From Candidatus Zixiibacteriota bacterium (GTDB lineage Bacteria; SM23-81), in NCBI GenBank assembly GCA_030628225.1, contig DAOVRJ010000177.1, positions 1 to 5,260 on the forward strand: a stretch of 5,260 nucleotides of DNA, in the 5' to 3' direction. The translations under genes were made by a program, and so were the position numbers. This document shows, piece by piece, positions 1 through 2,363 of this stretch. Within the stretch, counting starts at the first letter, position 1. Each line of letters opens with the position of its first letter. A model generated the notes under the pieces. It did not search any database. It saw nothing but the letters and a program-made list of their open reading frames with translations, and had not been told where the DNA came from.

Positions 1-953
1 AAGGGGGGTATATCCGCGTTCTGCCCGTTGAGAAACTGCATGAAGAGGAGCTGGAGCTTAAAAAGTATGAGCAGGACAAGCAAGACCTGATTCAGCTGGA
101 ACATCGGATCCTGGCCGTGGAACACGCAACCGCAGATGAGGTCAAAGATGCTCTGGCCTCCGTGCTCTCCAAAAGGGGGAGCATTGAGATCGACACCCGA
201 ACCAATTCTCTGGTCGTCACCGATATTCCCCAGAATTTGGACCTGGTAGCCCAGCTGGTTGAGGATCTGGACAGGGAAACGCCCCAGATCACCATCTCTA
301 CCAAACTGTTTGAGGTTGACTCCAGAACCTTGTTTGAGATGGGCATTGACTGGACGGTCATCACTGACGGCAAAATGATACAGCAGGTCACAGCCAGCAG
401 CGTCTCTGAGGCCATCGGAACGTTTACTTACAGTACCATGAAAGATAACATCGACCTGGACGCCCTGCTATCGGCCATTATCAGCAAGAATAAAGGAGAG
501 ATTTTGGCTCATCCCGAGATAACCACCCTGGACAATAAGGAAGCTTATATTGTTATGGGCCAGGAGATACCCATGAAGACTCTGGACGAAGCCGGCAATG
601 TTATCACAGAGATGATTCAGGTGGGGACCCAATTGACAGTAACCCCGCATATCACATCCGAGGGTAAAATTCTGCTGGAGCTGGAGCCGGAGCGAAGCTC
701 CTATGAGGTAGACCCCGGGGCCGGCATCATCATCAACACCCAGAGAGCCAGGACCAGCGTAGTGGTCAAGGACGGTCAGACGGCGGTCATCGGTGGTATG
801 ACCATCAAGGATACCAAGAAGATTGAGAAGGGGCTGCCCATTCTCCAGGACATCCCCCTTTTAGGAAACCTGTTCAAGTATCAACGGAATGAGGTAACCA
901 AGAAGGATCTGATCATCTTCGTCACTCCCCACATCGTGACTTCCCAGGAGTAA
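1..953 (+). CDS. pilQ: Type IV pilus secretin, PilQ type (C-terminal part, 5' end outside window)
   Basis: This is an outer-membrane secretin, the multimeric gated channel through which type IV pili or secretion substrates cross the outer membrane. The frame is open from base 3 to the TAA at 951-953, giving 316 visible residues; the start and any AMIN/STN domains lie to the left. Residues 1-8 (GGYIRVLP) and the charged, probably helical linker at about 10-33 resemble the segment PilQ proteins carry before their N1 domain. A secretin N1-like fold follows at about 34-90, with the typical RTNSLVVTDIP at about 66-76. The secretin core runs from about 95 to the end and includes GEILAHPEITTLDNKEA near 165-182, VGTQLTVTPHIT, the gate-region signature GLPILQDIPLLGNLF at about 277-291, and the terminal IIFVTPHIV. 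The protein ends four residues after that strand, so it has no pilotin-binding S domain. A GTG at 117 is internal, not the start. The secretin call is near certain. PilQ rather than GspD is inferred from the linker and would be settled by upstream pilMNOP genes. Confidence 0.93.
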   Translation, partial: GGYIRVLPVEKLHEEELELKKYEQDKQDLIQLEHRILAVEHATADEVKDALASVLSKRGSIEIDTRTNSLVVTDIPQNLDLVAQLVEDLDRETPQITISTKLFEVDSRTLFEMGIDWTVITDGKMIQQVTASSVSEAIGTFTYSTMKDNIDLDALLSAIISKNKGEILAHPEITTLDNKEAYIVMGQEIPMKTLDEAGNVITEMIQVGTQLTVTPHITSEGKILLELEPERSSYEVDPGAGIIINTQRARTSVVVKDGQTAVIGGMTIKDTKKIEKGLPILQDIPLLGNLFKYQRNEVTKKDLIIFVTPHIVTSQE

Positions 954-1190: not shown

Positions 1191-1736
1191 GTGCAGATGA
1201 ACATTCTCCTGACAGGCAAGCCCGGGGTGGGCAAGACCACTGTTATTGGAAAAGTCCTATCTCGACTTACCCGGCGTCTGGGCGGTTTCACCACTCAGGA
1301 AATCCGTCAGGAAGGCTGCCGCGTTGGGTTCAGCATCAGGGCAGTTGACACCGGTCAGGAGGGAATACTGGCCCACGTAAATATTTCCGGTCCCTATCGG
1401 GTAGCCAAGTACGGCGTGAACGTAGAGGATATGGAGAAGGTGGGAGTATCTGCCCTGCGCCGGGCCCTTAAATCCGGCGATCTGATCATCATGGATGAGA
1501 TCGGTCGAATGGAGAATTACTGCCCATCCTTTCAACGAGCGGTTCTGGAGGTCCTCGATGCCCCCAAAGACGTGCTGGGCACTCTGCAGATGAAATCCAC
1601 ACCCTTTCTGAACCAGATTCGGGAGCGCCCGGATGTGGCCGTCAGGCTGGTCACTTTCCGGAACCGTGATGCTCTGCCCGCCGAGTTGATAGAGCTTTTG
1701 GGAAGAAGGGATTACCGGAGCGAGAAAAACCCATGA
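1191..1736 (+). CDS. THEP1-type nucleoside-triphosphatase
   Basis: A 181-residue cytosolic P-loop protein of the THEP1/DUF265 family (bacterial and archaeal NTPases related to human NTPCR), which hydrolyse ATP, GTP and other nucleotides; the physiological role is not established. Visible motifs are the Walker A GKPGVGKTT at residues 9-17, the family-specific GGFTTQEIRQEGCRVGF at 31-47 followed by the TGQEG turn near 54-58, GPYRVAKYGVNV at 67-78, and the Walker B segment LIIMDEIGRME at 98-108, where most relatives have GPME. The closing VTFRNRDALPAELIELL also fits, and the length is normal for the family. The start is GTG 1191; ATG 1197, two codons later, is equally possible. Neither has a convincing Shine-Dalgarno sequence, only CGGGG at 1181-1185. 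The stop overlaps the next start as ATGA, indicating translational coupling. The family call is firm; any pathway link to neighbours is unknown. Confidence 0.93.
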   Translation: MQMNILLTGKPGVGKTTVIGKVLSRLTRRLGGFTTQEIRQEGCRVGFSIRAVDTGQEGILAHVNISGPYRVAKYGVNVEDMEKVGVSALRRALKSGDLIIMDEIGRMENYCPSFQRAVLEVLDAPKDVLGTLQMKSTPFLNQIRERPDVAVRLVTFRNRDALPAELIELLGRRDYRSEKNP

Positions 1737-2170
1737 GAGTGGGCGTGCATCGAGGTACCATGATCAGGGTGGGCGTTTACCTGGCCGCCCTGATGGTGGT
1801 GATCGTTCTGTTGCGTCAGCGGCGCACCCTGATTCCCACATACAGCCTCAGAGTAATTGAGGTACGGGAAATGGACCAGCTGGGCCCCTTGTTTGCCAGA
1901 GAGGGAGAGAAGTTGGTGGTGGTAAGGGTCTGGTTGACGGTTCATGCCCAGATCAAGGGCCGTCTGGGGCCGGATTTTTTCAGCCTTCAAGATGCCCAGG
2001 ACCGAGAATATCGACCTGATTTTCTCTCGCCGATGTTTTCCAGCGATCTTCCAGGGAATCATGGCCCAGGAATTGAAGGGACCCTGGTGTTTCATCTGCC
2101 CCGAGGAATGGTGGGCAAGAGTTTATCCTTCCACGCATACGCAGAGAACGATGCCCCAGACCTTAAATAA
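1733..2170 (+). CDS. Membrane-anchored protein with DUF4352-like beta domain
   Basis: A 145-residue protein of unknown function. Residues 11-27 (IRVGVYLAALMVVIVLL), flanked by arginines at 12 and 28-31, form one hydrophobic segment. It is most likely a signal anchor that leaves the rest outside the cytoplasmic membrane; there is no lipobox cysteine. The remainder reads as a small beta sandwich: KLVVVRVWLTV near 60-70, FFSLQDAQDREYRPD at 82-96, GIEGTLVFHLPRG near 113-125 and LSFHAYAE near 131-138. That order (a 'vvvrv.v' strand, a 'F.L.D..g..Y' strand, then an acidic or glycine turn and 'GtlvF.lP') matches the DUF4352 immunoglobulin-like fold of exported proteins and lipoproteins, though only by eye. 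The ATG at 1733 overlaps the THEP1 stop by four bases. ATG 1760 (residue 10), with GAGG at 1752-1755, is an alternative start placing the anchor at the extreme N-terminus. The last 20 bases overlap the leuC-like fragment. Confidence 0.75.
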   Translation: MRVGVHRGTMIRVGVYLAALMVVIVLLRQRRTLIPTYSLRVIEVREMDQLGPLFAREGEKLVVVRVWLTVHAQIKGRLGPDFFSLQDAQDREYRPDFLSPMFSSDLPGNHGPGIEGTLVFHLPRGMVGKSLSFHAYAENDAPDLK

Positions 2171-2307
2171 GCAGATTTTGGCCCAGAAAGCGGACCATGA
2201 GGAAGTTCTTCCCGGCCAGATCGTCACCGTCGTCCCTGATCTTCTGCTCAACCACGACGACTATCTCACGTAAGTTCAGACAGTTAGGAATAAAGAGGAT
2301 AGAAGAT
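2151..2307 (+). pseudogene. leuC: N-terminal remnant of a LeuC/HacA-type dehydratase large subunit
   Basis: ATG 2151 opens a 40-codon frame ending at TAA 2271-2273. Its product has KQILAQKADHEEVLPGQIV at residues 7-25, then VPDLLLNHDD at about 28-37. This corresponds to the N-terminus of isopropylmalate/homoaconitate dehydratase large subunits (aconitase superfamily; pattern 'eKILA.hag.eeV.pGeIv.v.vDl.l.HD'), iron-sulfur enzymes of more than 400 residues used in leucine or related 2-oxoacid biosynthesis. In the next frame, 2272-2307 encodes KFRQLGIKRIED, which fits the following family segment ('.kF.elGvkkv.dP'), so a small indel near 2262-2271 probably shifted the frame. A stop (TGA 2308-2310) then follows, and no further homology is visible before the protease gene. 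None of the catalytic or cluster-binding region is present. The start overlaps the preceding gene by 20 bases and has a weak AGAGAA upstream, as expected for a former operon member. An assembly or sequencing error is the main alternative. Confidence 0.66.
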
Positions 2308-2348
2308 TGATTTCCCACGTCAAAAAGGGATTGGCCGCAAGAGAGCGG

Positions 2349-2363
2349 TGACCGTTCCGGTCA
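2349..2363. repeat. Short perfect inverted repeat upstream of the protease gene
   Basis: TGACCG (2349-2354) and CGGTCA (2358-2363) are perfect inverted arms around a 3-base TTC loop. The element lies 29 bases before the protease start and ends on the first base of an alternative ATG (2363) in the same frame. No T run follows, so it is not a terminator. It might be a small operator or leader hairpin, or chance. Confidence 0.3.

Follow-up and report, generated by a model that had tools for sequence, protein, structure and literature searches.

The two-subunit dehydratases of the LeuC/LeuD, HacA/HacB and DmdA/B type (NF001614, TIGR01343, TIGR02087) provide one frame of comparison for the locus described here, and the general class of deletion pseudogenes in operons provides the other. 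As in the latter, both ends of a two-gene segment are kept here at the syntenic site and the middle is gone, with the flanks left intact. The window, by which we mean the whole stretch of 5,260 nucleotides from a Candidatus Zixiibacteriota genome that was analysed, carries a stub corresponding to the N-terminus of the large dehydratase subunit. Of the two subunits, it keeps ca. 37 codons of the large and ca. 15–18 codons of the small one. Compared with other deletion pseudogenes in operons, the present case has no unusual feature, and the loss of the leuC-leuD pair is ordinary gene loss. We consider it very probable (roughly 87%) that the 40-codon ORF at 2151-2273 is a pseudogene remnant, left by an internal deletion of about 1.6 kb that took out most of leuC and most of leuD. 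The features of the locus are collected in Table 1.

Table 1. Features of the window, and the fused paralogues found elsewhere in the same genome.
Feature	Position	Strand	Length	Evidence and remarks
Secretin (PilQ-type), upstream, common to SM23_81	3..953	+		PF00263 E=5.1e-43; 71% identity
THEP1-type NTPase, intact syntenic neighbour	1191..1736	+		PF03266 E=1.3e-52; 75% aa identity to SM23_81
DUF4352-like protein, N-terminal hydrophobic segment, intact	1733..2170	+		PF11611 E=0.0012, below curated cut-off; 49% identity to SM23_81
leuC 5' remnant, codons 1-37 of LeuC/HacA-family large subunit	2151..2261	+		SM23_81 identity, NCBIfam N-terminal matches
Deletion junction with TAA stop (2271-2273) closing the 40-codon ORF	2262..2294	+		No convincing alignment to SM23_81 leuC/leuD; breakpoint approximate
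leuD 3' remnant (EDRRLISHVKKGLAARER-stop), in frame with leuC remnant	about 2295..2349	+		SM23_81 leuD match, collinear with protease gene
Subtilase (S8) with FG-GAP repeats, cut off by the contig end	2393..5260	+		PF00082 E=7.6e-54; 75% identity to SM23_81
Tandem fused LeuC-LeuD (aconitase-type) genes	L030 (G000:C158) 4412-6205 and 6221-8008		597 and 595 codons	Followed by presumed CitE-like and CitF-like genes

The ORF, on the plus strand, starts with ATG, stops with TAA and encodes the 40-residue product MPQTLNKQILAQKADHEEVLPGQIVTVVPDLLLNHDDYLT. Its intact start overlaps the DUF4352-like ORF by 20 bases, as the preliminary description of this DNA had pointed out. The same description took the 40 codons for the N-terminus of a truncated LeuC/HacA-type gene, and the profile search bears this out with four NCBIfam matches, all to LeuC/HacA models and all aligned at the N-terminus (TIGR02083, E=0.0011; NF001614, 0.0039; TIGR01343, 0.0088; TIGR02086, 0.01). 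These matches are weak, which we attribute to the shortness of the query, and the 40-mer gave no match against Pfam and PDB sequences. The N-terminal signature T..EKIL.....V.PG.IV...PD...HD is present, with K8 replaced by Q. A full-length LeuC/HacA protein, i.e., some 415 residues with the [4Fe-4S] cysteines, is not encoded, and the stub scores 14.6–18 bits against family cut-offs of at least 385.

A protein search of 60 relatives gives a clearer picture. Residues 1–37 are 73% identical to the start of the full-length LeuC of SM23_81 (E=2.8e-12) and 46% identical to the LeuC starts of two genomes of the same phylum, showing that the resemblance is homology and not chance. At the nucleotide level, window positions 2149-2261 align without gaps to the leuC start of SM23_81 with 76% identity over the stub, and the fragment covers leuC bases 1–111. 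The remaining residues 38–40 (YLT) and the stop codon derive from the deletion junction.

The comparison with SM23_81 (candidate division Zixibacteria bacterium SM23_81, locus LJUY01000050) is central to the assignment. It is the only other genome of the same family that was compared and the one genome with a syntenic intact locus; our search for literature on it found none. Its gene order is secretin, THEP1, DUF4352-like, leuC (418 codons), leuD (196 codons) and subtilase, and the window has this same order minus leuC and leuD between the DUF4352-like and subtilase genes. The order THEP1 - DUF4352-like - leuC that had been proposed as ancestral thus exists intact, together with leuD, in a relative with the same THEP1 neighbourhood. 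Full-length leuCD ortholog pairs occur also in two further genomes of the phylum (62–64% identity), and full length is therefore the ancestral state. The arrangement THEP1 - DUF4352-like - leuC-leuD - protease seems confined to the family: among 26 THEP1 loci in public genomes, SM23_81 alone has the neighbourhood of the window, and in none of the other 25 does leuC lie beside THEP1.

At the other end of the gap, window positions 2295-2340 align to the 3' end of SM23_81 leuD over 45 bp without gaps, EDRRLISHVKKGLAA against EDGGLIPHVKRELAT. The score of this match is 36, which is reached by none of 2000 dinucleotide shuffles (maximum 31.5). The tail also sits where collinearity demands, about 53 bases 5' of the protease ATG, the corresponding distance in SM23_81 being 46. 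The subtilase gene probably starts at ATG 2393 rather than at GTG 2348 of the longest ORF, judging from its fit to the SM23_81 subtilase N-terminus and from GGGAGAAGG, which precedes it; in SM23_81 the subtilase gene overlaps the leuD end. The leuC and leuD remnants share one reading frame, and the junction of about 30 bases between them holds the TAA. Only the C-terminal tail of a LeuD/DmdB small subunit (TIGR02087) is present, the complete subunit with its NFGCGSSRE motif being absent. The preliminary description was thus right about the truncation of leuC but incomplete as to its extent, since most of leuD is lost too and its tail is kept before the protease gene.

The low pN/pS of the stub (given below) and its intact start overlapping the upstream gene could instead be taken as signs of a genuine small protein, or of a translated leader ORF through which the DUF4352-like gene would be coupled to the protease gene. 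We regard this as very improbable, because a full-length leuC occupies this place in the only close relative and because the stop lies within non-homologous junction sequence that is followed by a leuD remnant. Furthermore, no 40-residue homologue is found in the 60 relatives searched, where the matches lie in open frames of at least 420 codons; a small protein conserved at this length, which the preliminary description had named as the observation that would overturn its reading, is thus not seen in them. A scan of the plus strand from 2150 to 2393 reported no promoter-like or terminator-like site.

The front of leuC and the tail of leuD being kept in their original order, an internal deletion is the best explanation and its polarity is clear: as judged from the sequence, this is a loss, neither a small gene nor an insertion. 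Searches of plasmid DNA and viral contigs around the junction gave no match. The presence of intact syntenic leuC-leuD in SM23_81 and of the leuD tail in the window sets the missing part at ca. 1.6 kb in SM23_81 coordinates. The ancestral run would have been THEP1 - DUF4352-like - leuC - leuD - subtilase, as it stands intact today in SM23_81, and one internal deletion of this size in the window lineage would have fused leuC at about codon 37 to the last part of leuD, some 15–25 codons ahead of its conserved end. A stop codon at the junction ends the ORF. The stub would make no enzyme, since it keeps neither the active site nor the region of the [4Fe-4S] ligands and almost nothing is left of the small subunit, and any translation of it would owe to the start codon still overlapping the preceding gene.

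The missing piece is absent from the assembly (306 contigs, 92% complete). Searches of the window genome with a hacA-family model, an Aconitase_C model and the SM23_81 LeuC protein did not find the rest of leuC-leuD and returned just two fused paralogues of about 596 residues on contig C158, so the intact copy elsewhere that the preliminary description had suggested looking for was not found. That the genome is of the metagenome-assembled type, with this fragmentation and completeness, raises the question of whether leuC-leuD are intact in the real genome and were cut short in the assembly by a false join of leuC codon 37 to the leuD end. The skipped 1.6 kb, however, is nowhere else in the assembly, and the ca. 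30 junction bases fit neither gene well.

The substitutions in the two remnants bear on the same question and on the age of the break. The pN/pS of the stub relative to SM23_81 is 0.24 (0.32 over codons 8–37), which lies within the spread found for windows of 37 codons in the intact neighbours, 37 codons being little material; at this length, a rate test for relaxed selection does not distinguish the stub from intact neighbour genes. Such values are those that intact genes would show, in keeping with an assembly artefact. On the other hand, K8 of LeuC, invariant in the sequences compared, is Q in the stub, and the DGGL of the LeuD tail has become DRRL in the alignment of the window with SM23_81 (in the multi-sequence comparison, the aligner misplaced the window row). 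These glycines are likewise invariant in the sequences compared. The loss of invariant residues in both remnants is expected of a dead gene, would not be anticipated in genes that are really intact, and argues against a purely artefactual join of live genes, which we therefore consider unlikely. As for the deletion reading, the similarity of the pN/pS to that of intact neighbours indicates that most of the divergence probably accumulated while the gene still worked, and that the loss came after the split from SM23_81. In sequence terms, the loss would be fairly recent relative to this split. Earlier, the break had been described as recent or artefactual and free of scattered decay; its recent age and the neighbour-like pN/pS agree with this, but the altered K8 and DGGL glycines do not fit an absence of decay and speak against the artefact.

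The lost enzyme would be a hydro-lyase of the aconitase superfamily with uncertain substrate. The intact SM23_81 proteins exceed the subfamily cut-offs of NF001614, TIGR01343 and TIGR02087 by a wide margin and score below the equivalog cut-offs for the leucine isopropylmalate isomerase (TIGR02083) and methanogen HacA (NF040615). The HMGL-like domain of LeuA (PF00682) is found in none of four phylum genomes, three of them with intact leuCD (14 of 14 controls were positive), and Iso_dh (PF00180, LeuB) has no match in the window genome. The genome thus lacks the LeuA and LeuB matches that would mark a leucine-biosynthesis isomerase, which makes isopropylmalate an improbable substrate of the lost enzyme. 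Both genomes of the family have IlvC, located away from other leucine genes, and it occurs in three of the four phylum genomes (G000-G003). The enzyme was probably outside leucine synthesis, which would not be at stake, and the earlier expectation that the cell needs another leuC accordingly falls away. The aconitase-family complement of genomes G000-G003 is unusual. SM23_81 has LeuC-LeuD together with isocitrate/isopropylmalate-dehydrogenase-like genes near citrate synthase (L049). In two other phylum genomes (L095, 5347-7922, minus strand; L096, 3876-6478, plus strand), the orthologous leuC has a 4-base overlap with an upstream amidohydrolase gene, which we take to be MtaD/deaminase-like; the overlap suggests a coupled pair.

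A short piece of the N-terminus is missing from C158b, the second fused gene on contig C158, and this gene belongs to the same clade as the deleted leuC. In a tree covering 14 large subunits, the SM23_81 ortholog of the deleted gene groups with leuC of two other genomes, G002 and G003 (support 99/97), and C158b lies inside this group on a long branch. It is conceivable, but doubtful, that the free-standing leuCD could be lost because the fused paralogue took over its reaction, one chain replacing two subunits; the neighbours of C158b, presumably CitE- and CitF-like, indicate a different role.

The importance of the deletion beyond annotation is small. It cautions against annotating a 40-residue LeuC here and against inferring leucine prototrophy or auxotrophy from the stub, and it provides an example of gene loss within a poorly sampled phylum. 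If the takeover by the fused paralogue were true, a single-chain enzyme would have replaced a two-subunit one inside one family.
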